Shown here piece after piece: positions 3,109-36,763 of a DNA stretch of 42,545 bases. Source of the stretch: a virus; IMG/VR virus record IMGVR_UViG_3300033142_000494, positions 1 through 42,545 of that record, one strand, 5' to 3'. Every line of letters begins with the position of its first letter. Positions within the stretch are counted from its first letter, which is position 1. Both the position numbers and the translations under genes were made by a program. Below the pieces are notes generated by a model. That model had not been told where the DNA came from, did not search any database, and worked only from the letters and a program-made list of their open reading frames with translations.

Positions 3109-3603
3109 ATGGCTACTATTAAAAAAGCATACCAAGCAATCTTACTCGCATTAACAACCGCAATGGAAGCTGATGAGAATGCCACAATCGCAAGTGTCAT
3201 CAATGAAGTTACTGACCTTGCTGCAGCAAAAACTGGTTCAGGTGGTGGTAAAGCTACAGCATTCCACCGTGATGAAGATGGTGAAGTTGTTGCCATTAAA
3301 TGTTACTACCATAAGCTTTGGATGGACCCTCGTGTTGTTGAATTTGGTAAGAAAGCTACCAGCCCAACTGGTATGAACAACATGTGTAAAGATGGTGTAA
3401 GCAAATGGACTAAGCAACAACGTGATATTAAACAGCAAGAAGCTGAGCTTTTAGGTCGTGTTACAAGTGGTGACTTAGCTGTTGAAGATATTGAAAGTGA
3501 ACAAGAACGTATTCAAGCTGATGCAAAAGTCATTGTTGCTCGCGAAGATGAATATGGCTTCGAAACTCTTGAAGATTGTATTGCAGATAGTGCAGCACGC
3601 TAA
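3109..3603 (+). CDS. early protein of an unrecognised paralogous family, copy 2
   Basis: This 164-aa protein has GGAG upstream of ATG and the strongest promoter pattern in the early region. It shares with the 940 product the core RDEDG-x-V, CYYHK-x-W, TG-x-N-x-MCK-x-GVS-x-WTKQQR, LLGR-x-TSG-x-L. Its N-terminus is more helical and alanine-rich, with a Gly-rich hinge (TGSGGGK, ~42-48). The C-terminus is acidic (REDEYGFETLEDCIADSAAR). It has its own promoter and a terminator-like hairpin after it, so it is likely expressed alone and highly. A regulator or DNA-coating protein is possible, but this is inference. Confidence 0.88.
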   Translation: MATIKKAYQAILLALTTAMEADENATIASVINEVTDLAAAKTGSGGGKATAFHRDEDGEVVAIKCYYHKLWMDPRVVEFGKKATSPTGMNNMCKDGVSKWTKQQRDIKQQEAELLGRVTSGDLAVEDIESEQERIQADAKVIVAREDEYGFETLEDCIADSAAR

Positions 3604-10918: not shown

Positions 10919-11113
10919 ATGAGTAACTACCCTGATAATTGCCAAGGTAACAATTCTGATTATCCTTGGAACCAAGAAGACGCTCCTGAGTGCCCTGAAA
11001 TTGATTGTGGTGCACACTTAATAATTCATTGCAACGATAAAGACCTTACAGATATTGAATGTAGTGAATGTGATTATACTCAATACATTGAAAGGTGTAC
11101 TGATGATTTATAA
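10919..11113 (+). CDS. small zinc-ribbon-like protein, 64 aa
   Basis: GGAGT before ATG 10919 sets the start. The protein is acidic with several Cys: CPEIDCG, IHC and then ECSECDYTQYIERC. The C-x(2-5)-C spacing suggests a zinc ribbon or knuckle. It overlaps the DNA polymerase start by 11 bp and is therefore coupled to it. Role unknown; a polymerase or ssDNA-associated accessory is possible. Confidence 0.6.
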   Translation: MSNYPDNCQGNNSDYPWNQEDAPECPEIDCGAHLIIHCNDKDLTDIECSECDYTQYIERCTDDL

Positions 11114-12800
11114 AATTGTAAAACTAACTGAAGTTCAAGTTAACCCAGAACTACCTTTATTTTGTGATACTGAAACTTGTGGTTTATATGGTGAAGTGAG
11201 ATTAATTCAGTGTTACCAAGAAGGCTGGTCCCATGTATTATTAGTTGAGTGGCCTAATAACCTGCAACTAATGATGTTCATAATTAAGCATTGGACTGTC
11301 TGGCATAATGCTCACTACGATATAACAACTGTTCAAGAGCAAACTCATTCACGATTAATACCACCTAAGTTCGATGATACATTCCTTGCTGCTCGTTTAG
11401 CACAACCTCAATATGATAAGTATAGCTTAGATGCTGTTATTGCTCGTACTATGGGTTATGACCCTTATGAGAAAGCTGGACTTGATAAGAAAGTACTACA
11501 GAAGTCTAACTGGGATAGGTTAACATTAACTAAAGACCAATTATTGTATGCTGCACTTGATGTTAAGTATATGCCTGAGATATGGGCTGATGTTAATAAA
11601 GTTACTGAAGATACAACTTATGTCCTTGATAAATCCTGCCTAGCTAAAGCATTAGACTTTCAATGGAATGGTATGCCTGTGGATTCAGAAAAGGTAGATA
11701 CAGAATTCACTAGAATCAACAAAGAATTATCTGAAATTCCTATGCCTATTAATGCTAATTCTTGGCAACAAGTGCGAAAATGGCTCAACGTGGACCAATC
11801 TGATAAGATATTTCTATCTAATTTAGCTTTACGTGGTAATGACAAAGCGAGAGCCGTTCTTGATGTACGTTCACGTTGTAAATTACTTAGCTTTCTAACT
11901 AAGTATGACCATGATATTATTTATGGTAAGTTTAAGCCTTCAGCTAGGTCAGGACGATTTACTTCTGACGACCACAATTTACAGCAGATACCTCGTAAAC
12001 TTAAGTGTATCTTTGGTTATCCTGAAGACAGTGACCGTATACTTGTCTATTCTGATTATGCTCAGTTAGAACTACGAACAATCGCAGCTATCTTAGATGT
12101 TAAGCTAATGGTTAAAATGTTCCGTGAAGGTGTAGACTTACATGGTTATGTTGCGTCTATACTATTTGGTGAAGACTGGAAGAAGGATGATAGACAAGTT
12201 ACTAAAACCTATAACTTCAACTTATTATACGGTGGTTCAGTAGGTATGGTACTCAGTATTCTTAGTACTTACGGTCTTTTAGTTGAACCTCGTATAGCTG
12301 AACGCCACAAACTTAAGTGGCTTAAACTCTTTCCTGAAATTGACAAATGGCAGAAGCGAGAAATAAGTAATTGGCGTAAAGGTAAACTTGGTAGTACACC
12401 ATTAGGTCGTCAATATAAAGGTAATCTTATGACTGACCAAATGAATTTAATGAACCAAGGGGCTGGTGCTGAGGTAGCTAAGTTAGCAATGCATTACTTC
12501 TGTCCTAAGTTACAAGAGTTTAATGAGCAGAATGATACTGATGTTAAACTATGTAATTTCATTCATGATTCTTACATTCTAGATACACCAAACGACCCTA
12601 AAGTATATGAACCTGTTGCTAAAATCCTTGCTGAATGTATGCAGGAAGCCTGGTTTGAAATGAGTAAATGCTTCAAACTTAAAGACTTGCCTATGCCTGT
12701 TAACGTAAGAGTTGGTCATAACTGGGGCGACATAGAAAATGACGTATTCAAATGGGAGTATGACCTCGAAGGTATGGCTATGTACGAACGAGCGTTATAA
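11103..12800 (+). CDS. family A DNA polymerase with 3'-5' exonuclease
   Basis: Start ATG 11103 (AAGGTG upstream) gives 565 aa. The exonuclease domain is complete: Exo I D22-x-E24, Exo II N69/D73 (WHNAHYD) and Exo III Y149-x3-D153. Polymerase motifs: A YSDYAQLELR (D318, E323), B RQVTKTYNFNLLYG (K368, F372, Y376) and C IHDS (H488, D489). Phe at the position of E. coli F762 is the state commonly linked with virulent phages. Motif C reads HDS where most family members have HDE. It lacks a 5'-3' nuclease domain, which is supplied by the separate FEN protein at 15002. This is the replicative enzyme. Confidence 0.95.
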   Translation: MIYKIVKLTEVQVNPELPLFCDTETCGLYGEVRLIQCYQEGWSHVLLVEWPNNLQLMMFIIKHWTVWHNAHYDITTVQEQTHSRLIPPKFDDTFLAARLAQPQYDKYSLDAVIARTMGYDPYEKAGLDKKVLQKSNWDRLTLTKDQLLYAALDVKYMPEIWADVNKVTEDTTYVLDKSCLAKALDFQWNGMPVDSEKVDTEFTRINKELSEIPMPINANSWQQVRKWLNVDQSDKIFLSNLALRGNDKARAVLDVRSRCKLLSFLTKYDHDIIYGKFKPSARSGRFTSDDHNLQQIPRKLKCIFGYPEDSDRILVYSDYAQLELRTIAAILDVKLMVKMFREGVDLHGYVASILFGEDWKKDDRQVTKTYNFNLLYGGSVGMVLSILSTYGLLVEPRIAERHKLKWLKLFPEIDKWQKREISNWRKGKLGSTPLGRQYKGNLMTDQMNLMNQGAGAEVAKLAMHYFCPKLQEFNEQNDTDVKLCNFIHDSYILDTPNDPKVYEPVAKILAECMQEAWFEMSKCFKLKDLPMPVNVRVGHNWGDIENDVFKWEYDLEGMAMYERAL

Positions 12801-12890: not shown

Positions 12891-13694
12891 ATGCAAAAGT
12901 TTGAACAAGATTATGCTGCTTTAGTACAGCAAATATTAGTACAAGGTGAAAAGCGACAAACTCGTAATGGTGAGACAACATCCATATTTGGTGCTATGTT
13001 GAAAGTACCAATGAATGGTGATATGACTTTCCCAGTATTACAAGGTCGTCGTATGTACCATAAAGGCGTGCTTGGTGAATTAGCAGCTATGTTACGTAAG
13101 CCTACATGTTTAGCGGATTTTGAAAAGTGGGATTGTAACTACTGGAAACTTTGGGCTAAAGAAGATGGTTCAATCAATGTAGACTATGGTAATGCTTGGC
13201 ATGCTGATGGTCAGATTGAACGATTAAAAGATTCACTAGCTAATAATCCAACTGACCGCCGTATGATTATTAATGGCTGGAGACCTTGGAACTTATCTAA
13301 TCTTGATTTACCTTGTTGCCATTTACTTTACCAGTTCTATGTTCGTGATGGTAAATACCTTGATATGATGTGGTATCAGCGTTCAGTAGATACAATGATT
13401 GGGTTACCTTCAGATATTGTATTTGCAGCAGCTTGGTTAGTATCAATAGCTAATGAATTTGATATGATTCCTGGCGAAATTACTATGATGCTTGGTGATT
13501 GTCATATTTACAAAGAACATTATCAAAGTGCTAAAACTTATATTGATAGGGTTGTTTATTCACCTATATTAAAAGCACCTACATATAGATTTATGGCAGA
13601 ACTTGGTAAAGACTTTTGTTTATTCGAACCTAAAGATATAATCTTTAACGTATATCAAACCCATCCTAAAATTGACTTGGAGCTAAAAGCCTAA
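12891..13694 (+). CDS. thymidylate-synthase-fold enzyme, probable dCMP (hydroxy)methylase
   Basis: This 267-aa protein has the TS core: catalytic Cys in LPCCH (C143), QRS-x-D (R164, S165, D167), GLPSDI and HIY (H205, Y207). These align with E. coli TS residues C146, R166, S167, D169, H207 and Y209. The one mismatch is D175 in place of the Asn (N177) that selects dUMP. Asp at this site is the hallmark of T4 gp42-type dCMP hydroxymethylase, and N-to-D mutants of TS are known to act on dCMP. The enzyme probably uses dCMP and methylene-THF to make 5-hydroxymethyl- or 5-methyl-dCMP. It is followed directly by the MazG-like and deaminase genes. Ordinary TS activity is the alternative. Confidence 0.8.
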   Translation: MQKFEQDYAALVQQILVQGEKRQTRNGETTSIFGAMLKVPMNGDMTFPVLQGRRMYHKGVLGELAAMLRKPTCLADFEKWDCNYWKLWAKEDGSINVDYGNAWHADGQIERLKDSLANNPTDRRMIINGWRPWNLSNLDLPCCHLLYQFYVRDGKYLDMMWYQRSVDTMIGLPSDIVFAAAWLVSIANEFDMIPGEITMMLGDCHIYKEHYQSAKTYIDRVVYSPILKAPTYRFMAELGKDFCLFEPKDIIFNVYQTHPKIDLELKA

Positions 13695-14272
13695 TGAACC
13701 TCGGACATATATTTGAACGTGTAAGTGATTGGAATTCTAAACGTTATGAACGTAAATACGACCACAACCTAAGTGTTAACCTTTTAACTGAAGAGTTACA
13801 AGAATATTTTGATGCTAATACTTTAGTTGACCAGCTTGATGCTTTATGTGATATGACTTATGTTGCAATTGGTATACTTTGGAAAATTGATGTTGATAAT
13901 AGTACTCTTGAGTTTAATGCTGAAGAGTCTCATGCTCAAGTAGCTAGGTTATTAACGACTAATACTCTTGACCCTATTTATTTAGTTGCGTCAGTATTAG
14001 CTCAATATGAACATGATAATGATTATCCAACAGCTCTTGCTGCTCAAATGATTGTTACTTTATGTATGACTCAAATGTCAGCAATGGGTCTCAATCAAGA
14101 AGAATCATTCATGTCACTAGTTGTTGTATGTGATAGTAATGATTCAAAAAGTATAAAGAAAACTGCAGCACATATTAAAGCAAACGACGGTGATAAAGGT
14201 CCTTACTTTGTTGCTCCTGAACCTAAATTATTAGCAATCATTGCTCAAGCGGAGTTACGTCATGGCAGTTAA
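13694..14272 (+). CDS. MazG-like nucleotide pyrophosphohydrolase
   Basis: A 192-aa all-helical protein. LLTEELQEYFDANTLVDQLD followed by ALCDMTYVAIG gives the EE-x-x-E and later D-x3-D metal-binding pattern of all-alpha NTP pyrophosphatases (MazG, dUTPase and human dCTPase families). A later segment (CDSNDSKSI) matches the N-x-SK region of that fold. It overlaps the TS-fold gene by one base and the deaminase gene by 11 bp. With a dCMP-type TS enzyme next door, a dCTP-to-dCMP function (as T4 gp56 performs) is an attractive but unproven guess. Confidence 0.72.
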   Translation: MNLGHIFERVSDWNSKRYERKYDHNLSVNLLTEELQEYFDANTLVDQLDALCDMTYVAIGILWKIDVDNSTLEFNAEESHAQVARLLTTNTLDPIYLVASVLAQYEHDNDYPTALAAQMIVTLCMTQMSAMGLNQEESFMSLVVVCDSNDSKSIKKTAAHIKANDGDKGPYFVAPEPKLLAIIAQAELRHGS

Positions 14273-14840
14273 AGACATAGTTAAGTATGTATTCTCAGAA
14301 GCAGCTAAGTCAAACGTAGAGAAGCGTAAAGTTGGTTGTGTTATTACTAATGCGGCTGGAGTTATTGTAGCAGCAGGTCGCAACGCATCATTTGAAGATG
14401 GTGAGACACCTGATATCCATGCTGAAGAAATGGCTTGTGAAGAATTTATAGATACCGGTACCGGTCCTTACACTGCTTATGTTTCACAACCACCTTGCCC
14501 TAATTGTGCTACAATCCTTTTAGACACTGGTATTAGTAGTATTGAAGTAGTAGAAGAGTTCATGAAGTTCGATGGTGATAAACTACGTCTTGATTTGATA
14601 CCTCCTTCTGCAACAAAAGCTTTAGCTGAAGTATTAACTTTTGGTGCTCGCAAGTACAAGCCAAACAACTGGAAAAACTGCAAAGACTTAGCACGTTATG
14701 AAGCTGCAATGTTACGCCATATCTTAGCTTATCAAGAAGGTGAGTCACATGATAGTGAATCAGGTATGCCCCACTTATGGCATGCAATGACTAATATTGC
14801 ATTCTTAATTGAATTAGATAAAGATTCAAAAATGTGTTAA
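14262..14840 (+). CDS. dCMP-deaminase-like domain fused to dATP/dGTP diphosphohydrolase-like domain
   Basis: ATG 14262 (GGAG upstream) gives 192 aa. Residues ~1-97 are a zinc-dependent cytidine/deoxycytidylate deaminase: HAEE (H53, E55) and PCPNC (C79, C82). Residues ~101-188 match the small all-alpha dATP/dGTP diphosphohydrolase (MazZ-like) family: KFDGDKLRLDLIPPSATKAL, FGARKYKPNNWK, RYEAAMLRHILAYQEGE and SGMPHLWHAMTNIAFLIEL. The fusion joins deamination of dC nucleotides with hydrolysis of a purine dNTP. In diaminopurine phages the MazZ step feeds PurZ, but no PurZ is seen here, so the role of the second domain is open. Confidence 0.8.
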   Translation: MAVKDIVKYVFSEAAKSNVEKRKVGCVITNAAGVIVAAGRNASFEDGETPDIHAEEMACEEFIDTGTGPYTAYVSQPPCPNCATILLDTGISSIEVVEEFMKFDGDKLRLDLIPPSATKALAEVLTFGARKYKPNNWKNCKDLARYEAAMLRHILAYQEGESHDSESGMPHLWHAMTNIAFLIELDKDSKMC

Positions 14841-15001: not shown

Positions 15002-15895
15002 ATGTTACTATTAGACTTATCAGGCGTTGCATGTGCTAAACCTATAACACTTTATTATGAAGGTGTTAAACCACCAATTGAAGATGTGCGAAACGTATTA
15101 ATCGGAGACATACAGAACTATGAAAAACTGTACAGTAAGAACTTTGGACGTATGGTTGTTTGCATAGATTCTAAACCTTATTGGCGTTCTGAAGTACATC
15201 CATCTTACAAACAAAACAGAACTAAAGCTAAAGCTAAGTCTGATATTGACTGGGATGCGTTCGGTGCTGATGTCAATCAAATTAATATAGACCTTGTAGA
15301 GTATAGTAATTACATTATTATTGACCTTAAAGGTGCTGAAGCAGATGATGTAATAGCTGTACTTACTGAACATGCTATTGCTAAAGATGAACCTGTAGCT
15401 ATTATTTCTAGTGATAAAGATATGATGCAATTGCAAGTACGTCATAAAAATGTTTATCAGTTTAGCCCTAACCGTAATAAGTTGCTTACTCTTGAAAACA
15501 CCGAATATGATTTATTATCTCACTTACTTAAAGGTGATGTTAGTGATTGTATACCAAATGTGTTCAGTCCTGACAACCACTTTATGATTGAAGGTGACAA
15601 ACCTAGACAAAAGTCTATTAGTAAGAAAATCATTGCTGAAGTCCGTGAATACTTCCCAGATAACTTAGATAACTGTGAATTACTTGCCGATGCGTTAGAA
15701 AGATTCAAACAAAACCAAGTACTTATTGATACTACTTATATACCTGAAGAACTTCAGAAAACTATAATTAGTACTTTTAAGCGTAAGTCTTGCATTAATA
15801 AAGACCACCGCATTGATGAATTACTATCTGAGTTTGATGGCGAAGATGAGGGTGATTTTATAGGTGAACCTTCTAATGTGTCTGTGAGGTTATAG
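15002..15895 (+). CDS. 5'-3' exonuclease / RNase H (FEN-like, T4 Rnh type)
   Basis: This 297-aa protein has AAGGAA before its start. It shows FEN family acidic motifs: D5 (LLLDLSG), D56 (VVCIDSKPYWR), E113/D115/D116 (GAEADDVIAVL) and D138/D140 (SSDKDMMQLQ). An H3TH-type DNA-binding segment follows (LKGDVSDCIPNV). KPYWRSEVHPSYKQNR resembles the T4 RNase H family. It would remove RNA primers and flaps, replacing the 5' nuclease domain missing from the polymerase. Confidence 0.85.
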   Translation: MLLLDLSGVACAKPITLYYEGVKPPIEDVRNVLIGDIQNYEKLYSKNFGRMVVCIDSKPYWRSEVHPSYKQNRTKAKAKSDIDWDAFGADVNQINIDLVEYSNYIIIDLKGAEADDVIAVLTEHAIAKDEPVAIISSDKDMMQLQVRHKNVYQFSPNRNKLLTLENTEYDLLSHLLKGDVSDCIPNVFSPDNHFMIEGDKPRQKSISKKIIAEVREYFPDNLDNCELLADALERFKQNQVLIDTTYIPEELQKTIISTFKRKSCINKDHRIDELLSEFDGEDEGDFIGEPSNVSVRL

Positions 15896-16338: not shown

Positions 16339-16513
16339 ACAAGCAGTAGCACACGTAATAAAACATAAAAACTTAACTAAGTATGCAATAGCGCAAATAC
16401 TAGGTGCACAACCTCCATCTATTGACCAATGGTTAAAACGTACTCGCATGTCTAAAGCATATGCTGAAGTGTTCCTAAAAGAATTTAAAATTATTGTAAC
16501 GGACGCAGTATGA
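16328..16513 (+). CDS. Cro-like HTH regulator, 61 aa
   Basis: Overlaps its neighbours on both sides. NLTKYAIAQILGAQPPSIDQ-W is a clear helix-turn-helix in a Cro-sized protein, and LKRTRMSKAYAEVFLKEFK fits the third and fourth helices. Cro-family proteins repress by binding short palindromes. There is no CI partner or integrase, so it likely tunes lytic transcription. The perfect palindrome at 14950-14968 is a candidate target. Confidence 0.7.
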   Translation: MKTKQAVAHVIKHKNLTKYAIAQILGAQPPSIDQWLKRTRMSKAYAEVFLKEFKIIVTDAV

Positions 16514-17697
16514 TTCCATATGAGCACCAAATAGATTTAGCGGAACGTGCCTATGATATTCTTCGTGATGAGATGATTGTCTATCTTTGTTGTGAAGAAC
16601 GAACAGGTAAAACGCTAACAGCTATATTAGTTGCAGAGATGTCTAATGTACAGAAAATACTTGTCATAACTAAGAAGAAAGCTTTAGATGGTTGGTTTGA
16701 AACACTTGAAGCTTTTAAACATGATAAAGATTTCACTGTTATTAATTACCATCAAGCACTAAAGCAGACAACTAAGTATGATTTAGTTATATTAGATGAA
16801 AGCCATAACTATATATCAGCTTATCCTAAGACTGGCAAATTGTGGAAAGAAGTTAAAGTATTAACTAGTGAAGTACCGCTGATTTATATTAGTGCTACAC
16901 CTTATGCTCAAGGTCCACAGCAACTGTTCCATCAATTCGCTTTGTCTTCATGGTCACCTTGGAATAAACACTCTACTTTCTATCGTTGGTTTCAGCTGTA
17001 TGGTAAACCTTATTCATTAGAAATTAATGGTATAAAGATTCCACAATACGACAGAGTGCAAACTGAGATGGTACTTGGTTGTGTTAACCATTTGTTTATA
17101 ACAGCAACACGAAAGGAGTTAGGCTTTGAACATGAACCACTTGATAATGTACATCCTATACTACTATCGGAAGCAACTCGTGAAACTTATAATGAGCTCA
17201 TTCAGCATGACCTTGTTGAACTTTCTGTTGGTATGCTTGTATGTGATACTAGTCCAAAACTTCGAACAAGTCTTCACCAACTAGAAGGTGGGACTATAAA
17301 GATGGGTGATGAACGTTATATACTAGCTAATACTGAAAAGATAGATTACATTCTTGATATGTTTGGCGACAATGAATCTTTAGTTATAATGTATAACTAT
17401 ATAGCTGAGAAGACTAAACTTGAGAATCACTTCAAGAAAGCAAGAATACTTCAAGCAACGTCATTCGCCGAAGGTGTAGACTTACATAAGTATCGTGATT
17501 TAGTTATATATTCGCAAGACTTCTCTACTGCACGTCACACACAACGTAGAGCTCGTCAATGTAATAAAGAACGTAAGTTTCCAATTGATGTACATTATTT
17601 ACTAGTTAAAGATGCTATTAGCGCACAAGTATATTCAACTGTAAGTATTAATAAGAAAAATTTTGTCGATAAAGTTTTCAACCGAGGAACAATATAA
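16510..17697 (+). CDS. SF2 DEAD/DEAH-type helicase
   Basis: This 395-aa protein has motif I EERTGKTLTA (29-38), motif II VILDESH, motif III YISATPY, a motif V-like ATSFAEGVDLHKY and motif VI HTQRRARQCN. The N-terminus YEHQ resembles a Q-motif. It is shorter than UvsW or RecG and resembles compact phage SF2 helicases used in recombination or fork processing. It is coupled to the Cro-like gene (4-bp overlap). Confidence 0.85.
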   Translation: MIPYEHQIDLAERAYDILRDEMIVYLCCEERTGKTLTAILVAEMSNVQKILVITKKKALDGWFETLEAFKHDKDFTVINYHQALKQTTKYDLVILDESHNYISAYPKTGKLWKEVKVLTSEVPLIYISATPYAQGPQQLFHQFALSSWSPWNKHSTFYRWFQLYGKPYSLEINGIKIPQYDRVQTEMVLGCVNHLFITATRKELGFEHEPLDNVHPILLSEATRETYNELIQHDLVELSVGMLVCDTSPKLRTSLHQLEGGTIKMGDERYILANTEKIDYILDMFGDNESLVIMYNYIAEKTKLENHFKKARILQATSFAEGVDLHKYRDLVIYSQDFSTARHTQRRARQCNKERKFPIDVHYLLVKDAISAQVYSTVSINKKNFVDKVFNRGTI

Positions 17698-17930
17698 TGG
17701 CGAGTCTCATAAATAAACAAATGTTACAAGAATTAACATTAGAAGTCTTAACAAAAGATATGAATGATAGTCTTGATATTATTACTAAAGAAGTAATAAG
17801 TAAATTAGAATCTCAAGTCAGAGCTAATGTAGCTGCTAGATTAATTGGCAGGGTTAATAAAGACTATGATATACAATTTGATAGAGATAGAATACAAATA
17901 ACAATCCGAATGGAGACTCGCCATGTTTAA
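17697..17930 (+). CDS. hypothetical protein, 77 aa
   Basis: Start overlaps the helicase stop (TAATG); the end overlaps the ligase start by 8 bp. The protein is helical and amphipathic at first (LINKQMLQELTLEVLTKDMN), then ends in two basic strands (DIQFDRDRIQITIRMETRH). No family is recognised. Confidence 0.65.
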   Translation: MASLINKQMLQELTLEVLTKDMNDSLDIITKEVISKLESQVRANVAARLIGRVNKDYDIQFDRDRIQITIRMETRHV

Positions 17931-18807
17931 ACCAATGAAACCTGCCTCAAAGCTGATAAATCCTGTAGACATGAAGAAGTGGCCTAAGCTTGCATCAATC
18001 AAGTTTGATGGTGTTCGTGGTGTCACTAGTAAAGAAGGTGTGCTATCTAATAGTTTAAAGTTAATACCTAATCTTTACGTTCAACGTATATTATCAACTG
18101 TACCTGCAGGTTTAGATGGTGAGTTAGTCTTACGCGGTGATAAGGGTAAACTGTATGACAATAATCAATCTGCTTTTATGTCTGTTCAGGGTGAGCCTGA
18201 CTTTGTATTCAAAGCATTTGATTACGTAGTTCTTACAGAAGCACCGTTTGCCTATCGTTTGAATATATTAACTCAACTATGTTTAGACTTAGAATTTGTT
18301 GAAGCTGTTAATCATATAGAGCTTAATGAGCCTCAGGAAGCTCTAGATTTGTATGAATCTGCAAGACGAGGTGGTTATGAAGGTTTAATATTACGTGACC
18401 CTGAAGCTCCCTATAAACATGGTCGTAGTACTGTTAATCAAGAGTGGGGTTTGAAGATGAAACCTTATGACCCTGATGAAGCTATTGTAACAGGTTTCAC
18501 CGAGCTTCACCATAATGAGAATGAACAATCATTGAATGAGATGGGTAATAATGTACGTTCTAAACATCAAGATGGCAAAGTTCCAGGTGGTACCTTAGGT
18601 TCACTTGTTTGTTTGTATGATGGTAAAGAGTTCAAGATAGGTACTGGTTTCAGTGCAGAACAACGCCAAGAGATTTGGAATAACCGGATGGATTATAAGT
18701 TAAAATATGTACGCTTTAAACATCAAGGTATTACTAAATCAGGCGTCCCACGTGGTCCAGCTGTATTCTTAGGCTGGAGAAATAAAATAGATATTGGAGA
18801 GAACTAA
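17923..18807 (+). CDS. ATP-dependent DNA ligase
   Basis: This 294-aa protein has motif I IKFDGVRG with the AMP-accepting Lys (K27), DGELVLRG (motif Ia/II area), motif III FKAFDYV, motif IV EGLILRDP and motif V EWGLKMKPYD. An OB-fold domain follows (GSLVCLYDGKEFKIGTGFSA). Length matches minimal phage ligases of the T7 class. It seals Okazaki fragments and recombination intermediates in concert with the FEN nuclease and polymerase. Confidence 0.93.
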   Translation: MFKPMKPASKLINPVDMKKWPKLASIKFDGVRGVTSKEGVLSNSLKLIPNLYVQRILSTVPAGLDGELVLRGDKGKLYDNNQSAFMSVQGEPDFVFKAFDYVVLTEAPFAYRLNILTQLCLDLEFVEAVNHIELNEPQEALDLYESARRGGYEGLILRDPEAPYKHGRSTVNQEWGLKMKPYDPDEAIVTGFTELHHNENEQSLNEMGNNVRSKHQDGKVPGGTLGSLVCLYDGKEFKIGTGFSAEQRQEIWNNRMDYKLKYVRFKHQGITKSGVPRGPAVFLGWRNKIDIGEN

Positions 18808-29698: not shown

Positions 29699-30345
29699 TA
29701 TGCTACTCCTGTTCCGACATATGCTTGATTAGTAGGGTTACCAGCAATTACTTGATTATTAGCAGGTGGATTATATTGGTCTATAGCTCTACCAATAGTT
29801 TGAATACCTGAACTAATTGCTTGTCCAGCTGCTTGATTAGCATAACCTGCTTGTTGTTGCAAGTTGCTTGCTTGATTTTGCAATGCTGTGCTTAGTGAAC
29901 TACCTGGATTTTGACCTAGGCCAATTTGTAAGAATCTAGTCTTATCTTCAGCAGCTTGTCGTGGCGCATCCTGACGTATACCTGCACGTGTCTCAGCAGC
30001 ATTAAGCTCTGCTTGAGACTCAAGACTAGCAGCAATACCAGAAGATGGGTCAATACCACGTTGAGCTAAGTTTTCATCCATACGTGTTAACGCAGTCTGA
30101 TACTGTTGCTCAAATGTTTCTAGACCTGTTGCAGCATAATAATCAGGTGAAACATTCTCATAATAACTAGCTAGGTTATCTTGTAAAGGTCCATAGACTC
30201 CCTGCCAATCATCATACTTCTCTTGTTCAAAAGCTAGGGATTTAACACTAGCTTTACTCGCTCGTTTACTCGCTTTATTTGCTGAATGGGCTGCTACTCC
30301 ACTTGATATTACTGCACCGCCTACTACTGCTCCTGCTACACCCAT
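29698..30345 (-). CDS. putative small ejection protein (P22 gp7-like position)
   Basis: This 215-aa protein begins with a Gly/Ala-rich hydrophobic segment (MGVAGAVVGGAVISSGVAAH), then AHSANKASKRASKASVKS. The middle has YGPLQDNLASYYENVSPDYY. The Gln/Ala-rich rest includes ALQNQASNLQQQAGYANQAA. This pattern is common to small DNA-ejection proteins of podoviruses. It overlaps the sulfotransferase gene by 10 bp. Confidence 0.65.
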   Translation of the reverse strand: MGVAGAVVGGAVISSGVAAHSANKASKRASKASVKSLAFEQEKYDDWQGVYGPLQDNLASYYENVSPDYYAATGLETFEQQYQTALTRMDENLAQRGIDPSSGIAASLESQAELNAAETRAGIRQDAPRQAAEDKTRFLQIGLGQNPGSSLSTALQNQASNLQQQAGYANQAAGQAISSGIQTIGRAIDQYNPPANNQVIAGNPTNQAYVGTGVA

Positions 30346-30986
30346 AAATCACCTATGTCTTTATTGTTTTCTAATGAATATGAAAAACGCTCTAAGTCAC
30401 ATCCCCACATACTTTTAACTATCTCAATAGTTTCATCACTATAATAAGCGCTATAATGTTCGTGGTTAGTTCCATTTAGCGATTCAAACTTATCGGTGTC
30501 AAACATACTGCTTAATCCGTTTTTACTTATAAAATCGTCAAGACCTTGCTTTAAATCCTCAAACCTAACAACTGTAAAGGCATCTTTTTTAGCATGTTCT
30601 ATAAATTCCACCTGTGACATTGCATGAAAAAAATTAGGGTTCTTACTTAATATATAAAACCCTCTGGCAAAGTTTAAAAAGTCGGTAGTATCAACATCGT
30701 ATATCTTACCAAGGTCATATTTCTTAGCAAAGAAATACATAGAAACAAACCTATCGTACGGGTTTCTAACAACAGCTAAAACAGGCTTGTTAAGAATACT
30801 TGAACCTAAATTAACTTCTAATTCCGATATACTTTGATGTGAAGATTCAAATATATTTAAATGCCTAGGATTGTCACCGCTAAGGTATTCGTTCCTTACA
30901 GTATTCGCGTCTCCGAAGAATGTATATAGAGATGTGCTAGCATTCTTTGGGATGCGAATAAAAGTTAATAGTTTTCCTATAGCCAC
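30336..30986 (-). CDS. sulfotransferase-family protein
   Basis: This 216-aa protein carries both PAPS-binding signatures: 5'-phosphosulfate loop RIPKNASTSL (11-20) and 3'-phosphate motif VVRNPYDRFVSMYF with R74 and S82 eight residues apart. The remaining sequence fits the Sulfotransfer_2-type fold. It would transfer sulfate from PAPS to a sugar or other hydroxyl. It is inserted between a GNAT-like protein and the ejection cluster, inside an otherwise structural operon. Surface-polysaccharide modification (superinfection exclusion) or modification of a virion component are possible. Acceptor unknown. Confidence 0.82.
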   Translation of the reverse strand: MAIGKLLTFIRIPKNASTSLYTFFGDANTVRNEYLSGDNPRHLNIFESSHQSISELEVNLGSSILNKPVLAVVRNPYDRFVSMYFFAKKYDLGKIYDVDTTDFLNFARGFYILSKNPNFFHAMSQVEFIEHAKKDAFTVVRFEDLKQGLDDFISKNGLSSMFDTDKFESLNGTNHEHYSAYYSDETIEIVKSMWGCDLERFSYSLENNKDIGDLWV

Positions 30987-36322: not shown

Positions 36323-36763
36323 CTACTTAGTAATAGTAGTATATTCACCAGTATTCTTAGTGAACTCAACGTATTCTACAACAACGATATATTTACCAAC
36401 GTCAGTTGCAGCACCAGTAGTTGTGATACCTAAGAATAAAGGTTTGCCTGTGGTAGTCAAAGACTGACCAGTGAACGTACCTTCTTTACCTGTTGACTTC
36501 AAATCAGCTGCACTTAAAATCTCAGAACCACCTTCGGTAGTACCAATAGTTGCTACGTTAGTAGTAGCTGCATCAGATGCAGTTTCAACGTGAATATAAG
36601 CGTCAGTGATTACCGCACGAGGTGGTAAGTTAGCAAGTAAGAAGTTACCAGAACCTGAAGTAATCTGATCATCTTCTGTGCCTTCAATAACTTTAGCAGA
36701 AAAAAGGCAAATGCTTTTCTTTTGCATAAAGTTATTTTGGCGGGTTTTATCGATATTAGCCAT
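36323..36763 (-). CDS. putative capsid decoration or head protein, 146 aa
   Basis: Directly downstream of the major capsid gene (2-bp gap). The sequence is strand-rich and Thr/Gly-rich: FLLANLPPRAVITDAYIHVE and KYIVVVEYVEFTKNTGEYTT. This is typical of small capsid-associated proteins that follow the capsid gene. A hairpin after it would give it high expression with the capsid. It also contains the only GATC I found (36667-36670). Confidence 0.6.
   Translation of the reverse strand: MANIDKTRQNNFMQKKSICLFSAKVIEGTEDDQITSGSGNFLLANLPPRAVITDAYIHVETASDAATTNVATIGTTEGGSEILSAADLKSTGKEGTFTGQSLTTTGKPLFLGITTTGAATDVGKYIVVVEYVEFTKNTGEYTTITK

Follow-up and report, generated by a model that had tools for sequence, protein, structure and literature searches.

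If a phage enzyme retains the whole catalytic set of thymidylate synthase (TS) but carries Asp instead of the Asn that defines canonical ThyA, what does it make and what could the product be used for? The question is raised by a 42.5-kb virus record (positions 1–42,545, analyzed at its full length and called here the window) that belongs to a tailed phage with podophage-type genes, namely those for a family A polymerase, a T7-type ssDNA-binding protein, helicases, ligase, portal, capsid, spanin and terminase. The TS-like gene is the first of three overlapping ORFs that run in one direction (12891–13694, 267 aa; 13694–14272, 192 aa; 14241/14262–14840), the first two sharing the TAATG at 13692–13696, and its surroundings are as follows.

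11103–12800, + strand: family A DNA polymerase (PF00476, 4e-34), upstream of TS in close relatives
12891–13694, + strand: TS-fold protein, predicted to be dCMP-specific (PF00303, E = 6e-55; residue table; model)
13694–14272, + strand: all-α NTP pyrophosphohydrolase, DR2231-like or dimeric dUTPase-like (PF01503, E = 4e-5; model)
14262–14840, + strand: putative zinc deaminase of the dCMP/5-methyl-dCMP type fused to DUF5664 (PF00383, E = 2e-12; PF18909, E = 7e-32)
15002–15895, + strand: 5′-3′ exonuclease (T4 RNase H-like) of the replication module (PF02739, 1e-17)
16510–17697, + strand: SNF2/ResIII-like helicase of the replication module (family scans), downstream and conserved in close relatives
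17923–18807, + strand: ATP-dependent DNA ligase (PF01068, PF14743)

Elsewhere in the window, two early ORFs (940–1389 and 3109–3603) both match PHROG 10459, of unknown function, and likely represent a duplicated early gene, and an ORF within the structural gene cluster (30336–30986, − strand) matches PHROG 3347, “galactose-3-O-sulfotransferase” (E = 4e-12).

Alignment with E. coli ThyA shows that residues 21, 58, 80, 83, 94, 126, 127, 143, 146, 147, 166, 169, 207 and 209 (E. coli numbering) are kept in the window TS, in which the catalytic set of the superfamily is complete (Arg21, Glu58, Trp80, Tyr94, Arg126′, Arg127′, Cys146, Arg166, Asp169, His207 and Tyr209). In the window's own numbering the catalytic residue is Cys143, Asp98 corresponds to V93 of E. 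coli and the C-terminal tail reads HPKIDLELKA, while the Asn177 typical of ThyA is replaced by Asp175, as it is by Asp in the aligned T4 gp42. An AlphaFold model of the protein, of pLDDT 95.6, can be superposed at 1.5 Å on residues 1–264 of E. coli TS (Z score 33.8), and the dN/dS of the gene, estimated between the window and two close relatives, is ~0.13–0.18. The change Asn → Asp at position 177 is cited as shifting TS from dUMP to dCMP, with 5mdCMP as the product (PMC8670742). The initial annotation had claimed that every catalytic residue but D175 matches E. coli TS, that this Asp is of the gp42 type and that an Asn-to-Asp TS acts on dCMP; the first two points are confirmed by the alignments, and the third agrees with the cited work. 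The TS-fold protein is very probably a dCMP-type enzyme.

The protein might instead be an ordinary dUMP-dependent thymidylate synthase that tolerates Asp177, its neighbors being generic nucleotide housekeeping genes and the phage DNA canonical. The window TS has in fact 28–31% identity to true TS and the full TS fold, and the td gene of Escherichia phage VR26 (L019:298–1155), annotated as thymidylate synthase and located beside frd, likewise has the selector residue changed to Asp (GLPFDIGSY; 177 in E. coli numbering), so that either VR26 td acts on dCMP or Asp177 is not decisive; T4 td has Asn at this position (PDB 1tis). The distribution of the residue among phages, however, argues against an ordinary TS. 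Two scans, one run with the alignment of the window clade and an independent one run with Asn-type TS, together gave 66 TS genes of the Asp type and 71 of the Asn type (representatives sharing <90% identity in either scan; one contig, that of L087 and L127, turned up in both). In the resulting tree the window clade forms a single branch (SH-aLRT 100), separate from T4 gp42 and from the TS of AXL1 (taken as a stand-in for its relative Xp12, genome MT664984), the placement of the latter two being unsure because both are long branches. According to the residue table, Asp177 is present in nearly all members of this clade, where it is accompanied by V93D, P145C and F176S/A, and the single Asn exception is L046.

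A pyrophosphohydrolase gene lies ≤1.5 kb from TS in 56 of 66 Asp-type as opposed to 2 of 71 Asn-type phage genes, although other pyrophosphohydrolase families beside Asn-type TS may have been missed, since the search profile started from the protein of the window itself; the same profile detected distant versions beside a second Asp clade and beside the AXL1 TS, and the pairing is thus seen in two Asp clades plus AXL1. Within the independent scan all 64 Asn-type phage TS representatives keep Asn, and 63 of them are devoid of the pyrophosphohydrolase. Together with the persistence of Asp almost throughout a deep clade and with the palindrome statistics presented below, these counts make an ordinary TS very improbable. 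The Asn-bearing member of the window clade (L046:8001–8657) is one of the two Asn-type genes with a pyrophosphohydrolase nearby, which is still found ~0.7 kb downstream; its sequence suggests an apparent reversion to dUMP specificity. The second Asp177 clade (L082–L101), largely consisting of 48–65 kb phage contigs, has Ser for Trp83 and Tyr at 176, and the pyrophosphohydrolase is close by in 13 of its 13 downstream-complete representatives.

An association of this kind has a precedent. MetaGPA, a study that selected modified-cytosine phage DNA from sewage and coastal water, found TS as the top domain, mostly with Asp177 in the modified contigs, the ligase domains PF14743/PF01068 and the deaminase domain PF00383 as further associated families, and PF01503, PF00383 and PF14437 as domains co-occurring with TS (PMC8670742). 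All six Pfams (PF00303, PF01503, PF00383, PF14437, PF01068 and PF14743) are found in the window, and Asp-type TS with these neighbor domains had already been tied to cytosine modification in 2021. On the other hand, position 147 is among the top two that separate modified from unmodified contigs in that study (PMC8670742), and the window TS retains His147, which neither T4 gp42 nor AXL1 has, a circumstance that counts against the modified-cytosine reading.

The partner of the TS gene displays the metal-binding helices EExxE...D of the pyrophosphohydrolases (E33, E34, E37 and D53, all fully or almost fully conserved) and yields an all-helical model (pLDDT 94.3), whose nearest solved structures are dimeric phage dUTPases (TM 0.56, with a weak E), a result compatible with either dCTP or dUTP as the substrate. 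By profile the protein is related to DR2231 (E = 0.008), and that of a relative is annotated NTP-PPase_DR2231_like. The 13694–14272 product is a candidate for the conversion dCTP(dUTP) → dCMP(dUMP), its pairing with Asp-type TS being what points to dCTP. Since a tested PF18909/DUF5664 homologue hydrolyzes dATP, dUTP and dGTP (PMC12884076), this product, and not the PF18909 domain, is the sole dCTPase candidate of the locus. Accordingly, of the two domain assignments made initially, a MazG-like gene and a deaminase fused to a diphosphohydrolase-like domain, both hold as far as the domains are concerned (PF01503; PF00383/PF18909), while DUF5664 offers no dCTPase candidate. DUF5664 also occurs in Z phages; a link with 2-aminoadenine (Z-DNA) was considered and dropped, no PurZ-like match being found among the ORFs scanned.

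The deaminase moiety, likely to start at the ATG at 14262, has intact HAE and PCxxC zinc motifs; at the allosteric motif G(Y/W)N(A/G) of dCMP deaminases it reads GRNA, most stand-alone deaminases of the clade having GYNG or GFNG. A deaminase is found near TS in 31 of 53 Asp-type members of the window clade and was not found near the TS of VPMS1; being optional, it leaves TS and pyrophosphohydrolase as the conserved core. The adjacency opens another route by which the DNA would stay canonical, namely a thymidylate supply in which TS makes 5-methyl-dCMP and the adjacent deaminase converts it to dTMP. Indeed, dCMP deaminases accept 5-methyl-dCMP, and Xp12 obtains dTTP from 5-methyl-dCTP through its deaminase (PMC12088426); furthermore, searches of 32 genomes revealed no ThyX and no additional complete TS gene, the TS of G018 being split over contig ends. 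Yet this route leaves unexplained why many clade members, VPMS1 included, possess TS and pyrophosphohydrolase with no adjacent deaminase, nor does it predict the missing avoidance of palindromes described below, and we regard it as improbable, albeit less so than an ordinary TS.

If dCMP is the substrate, is the product methylated or hydroxymethylated? The signature of the T4 dCMP hydroxymethylase consists of an Asp at Cys −3 and a Ser (or Thr) at −2 from the active-site Tyr, with the C-terminal tail absent, whereas Trp83 and Leu143 of E. coli TS exclude solvent (PMC6400193). Formation of 5-hydroxymethyl-dCMP as by T4 gp42, which would result in virion 5hmC, either bare or decorated by an unrecognized enzyme, is suggested by Asp177, shared with gp42, by the annotation of one relative as a pyrimidine hydroxymethylase by others and by Asp98: this clade-wide residue occupies the site equivalent to T4 Ser94, the water-binding residue that is reported to map in space to E. 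coli position 93 (PMC6400193), and might activate water, thereby representing the one feature that could favor hydroxymethylation. The remaining features of the active site point the other way. The Asp at Cys −3 is missing, being Leu140 in the window and Leu in every clade member (one clade scan demanded this Leu, another scan and the tblastn hits did not). No Ser or Thr stands at Tyr −2, where the window reads Val97-Asp98-Tyr99; almost every clade member likewise has a hydrophobic side chain at −2 and Asp at −1. The solvent shield of TS is kept (W80, W83 and L143 in E. coli numbering, with Trp83 in nearly all the clade), as is the tail that gp42 lacks, which aligns and models through E. coli residue 264. 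Since shield and closing tail are retained and the hydroxymethylase Asp is missing, 5-methyl-dCMP is the likeliest product, a hydride reducing the intermediate.

The enzymes expected downstream of a hydroxymethylase are likewise missing: family scans of the window yielded no glucosyltransferase match, and no carbamoyltransferase (PF16861) was found in 32 genomes. Tet/JBP proteins were sought in the same genomes and gave no match either, a negative that carries no weight because the search had no positive control. A methylating TS needs dihydrofolate reductase (DHFR) for regeneration of its cofactor. DHFR, which suits methylation better, is found in two of the closest relatives (G001 and G002) and in G014; the window itself has none. 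As these genomes have neither ThyX nor a second complete TS, the DHFR, if it serves a phage enzyme, serves the Asp-type TS. The methyl product thus appears about twice as probable as the hydroxymethyl one, and a dCMP hydroxymethylase, while the most serious competitor, remains unlikely. The T4 gp42 analogy drawn at the outset consequently stands for the selector Asp, whereas the hydroxymethylase signature is missing and the methylation features of TS are present, so that a 5-methyl-dCMP synthase of the Xp12 type is the better model.

Is a modified base likely to reach the phage DNA? Modification of cytosine throughout a genome blocks most type II enzymes, and selection against their sites should therefore fade. 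The observed/expected ratio of C-containing 6-bp palindromes, calculated with a maximal-order Markov model on about 40 kb per genome, is 0.83–1.01 (median 0.92) in 23 clade genomes, the window having 1.01; it is 0.63–0.93 (median 0.82) in 20 Asn-type TS phage contigs and 0.43–0.81 (median 0.59) in five isolates presumed to be unmodified. The corresponding p-values against the clade (1e-5 and 2e-5, respectively, and 0.005 when the Asn-type group is limited to contigs with GC ≤50%) are optimistic because the genomes are related. Phages known to have modified cytosine give 0.92 (T4) and 0.89 (AXL1). The same difference is seen between phages matched by recorded or named hosts, most contigs being without a known host: in V. 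parahaemolyticus VPMS1 has 0.99 vs 0.43 for VpV262, in P. marina PH1 has 0.98 vs 0.81 for RIO-1 and in E. tarda KF-1 has 0.93 vs 0.76 for MSW-3. For L046 the ratio is 0.88, compared with 0.97–1.02 for pieces of the window, but its 16.6 kb are too little to weigh. The near absence of palindrome avoidance in the clade is as expected if the DNA resists type II restriction, and constitutes indirect evidence to this effect.

The tetranucleotide GATC behaves differently, the window having a single site (36667–36670) vs ~102 expected. Roughly one in two genomes of the clade is likewise nearly GATC-free, other palindromes not being avoided, and GATC is also depleted in T7; the depletion probably stems from adenine-methylation-dependent processes and says nothing against cytosine modification. 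Concerning restriction itself, VPMS1 DNA was digested with HhaI (Fig. 1B of PMC4870561), for which 148 sites and a largest fragment of 1.8 kb are predicted.

In the pathway that we infer, the pyrophosphohydrolase would first convert host dCTP to dCMP, thereby removing a competitor and supplying the substrate. The dCMP would then be bound through Asp175, a residue read directly from the sequence, and attacked at C6 by Cys143; a one-carbon unit would be transferred from methylene-tetrahydrofolate to C5 and, as in Xp12, reduced by a hydride to give 5-methyl-dCMP. Kinases, probably those of the host, would produce 5-methyl-dCTP, to be used by the family A polymerase in place of dCTP. Most cytosine in the virion DNA would then be 5mC, and the majority of type II restriction enzymes would be unable to cut it. 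In a side branch the deaminase-DUF5664 protein, where present, would yield dTMP or dUMP from (5-methyl-)dCMP and trim other dNTPs. The window contains no recognized modified-dCMP kinase, which we count against the pathway; family scans of the window agree with the earlier statement that neither a glucosyltransferase nor a dNMP kinase is recognizable. The general scheme put forward initially, in which dCTP is stripped and a 5-modified dCMP supplied, gains support from the clade-wide Asp, the gene pairing, the MetaGPA Pfam set and the palindromes, all of which are properties of genomes.

Overall, a C5-modified cytosine is likely to be present in the virion DNA, and on balance we lean towards a cassette that would make a C5-modified cytosine nucleotide for phage DNA, most likely 5-methyl-dCMP in the Xp12 manner. 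A more ambitious formulation seems doubtful when taken as a whole: a ~40-kb podophage lineage would have swapped its genomic cytosine for 5-methylcytosine by means of a separately evolved Asp177 dCMP methylase, with an Asp beside the active-site Tyr, and of a dedicated dCTP pyrophosphohydrolase, the branch of the window making its thymidylate by methylation followed by deamination through the deaminase-DUF5664 fusion.

Were cytosine modification confirmed, its genome-wide occurrence would extend past the Xp12 group and the large phages related to T4. It would be the normal condition in a small-podophage family that is widespread, being present in many environmental samples, and that includes several phages isolated on aquaculture pathogens of fish and shellfish and annotated only as having a “thymidylate synthase”. 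It would explain the tolerance of restriction sites and would bias restriction- or bisulfite-based work on these phages. A compact dCMP-modifying enzyme with a nearly whole TS active site would also represent a natural test of the determinants of methyl vs hydroxymethyl transfer, and the pairing of Asp177 with a pyrophosphohydrolase, along with palindrome neutrality, would offer cheap genome-only predictors of cytosine-modified phages.

How does the window compare with known systems? Its closest named relatives by TS protein identity are the Edwardsiella phages KF-1, IW-1 and ETP-1 (60%) and Dickeya phage Amaethon (58%), followed by Vibrio phage VPMS1 (53%) and Pseudoalteromonas phage PH1 (48%). 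These Kafunavirus and allied podophages share with the window the gene order pol-TS-pyrophosphohydrolase-(deaminase/DUF5664)-nuclease-helicase-ligase, the enzyme being annotated merely as thymidylate synthase, and base modification goes unmentioned in the KF-1/IW-1 genome paper. A cytosine-modification cassette is previously undescribed for this phage group, the strategy itself being known as a defense against restriction enzymes.

The gp42 system of T4, with its dCTPase and HMdCMP kinase, resembles the window in the TS fold, in the selector Asp and in the logic of removing dCTP while supplying a 5-modified dCMP, but Asp145, Ser94 and Val85 of gp42 are replaced in the window by Leu, Val-Asp and Trp, and the C-terminal tail, missing from gp42, is complete. 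The modified contigs of MetaGPA have the same domain set and Asp177 but include some with a carbamoyltransferase, for which the search of 32 genomes found no match, and the window TS keeps His147.

The closest parallel is offered by the 5mC pathway of Xp12 and the other bosaviruses. The DNA of Xp12 is fully 5mC (PMC9206674; PMC8543423) and the phage has a folate-dependent dCMP methyltransferase (PMC8543423), while AXL1 DNA resists most enzymes tried (PMC9206674). In AXL1 gp61–gp64 encode in a row DHFR, dCMP deaminase, the Asp-bearing TS and a nucleotide pyrophosphohydrolase; AXL1 and the window share Asp177 and an adjacent PF01503 pyrophosphohydrolase and zinc deaminase. Both appear to lack Asp at Cys −3, although a gap in the alignment near 143 blurs this comparison, the AXL1 residue being Asn or Val. 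The two TS proteins are nevertheless very distant (phmmer E = 1e-11) and lie on separate branches: in that of AXL1, position 147 is Pro and a TS-like tail is not evident, whereas the window keeps both His147 and the tail; furthermore, the window has a deaminase-DUF5664 fusion and no DHFR. In light of this likeness, the window cassette appears to work in an Xp12-like fashion within an unrelated lineage, its TS having kept more of the ancestral active site.
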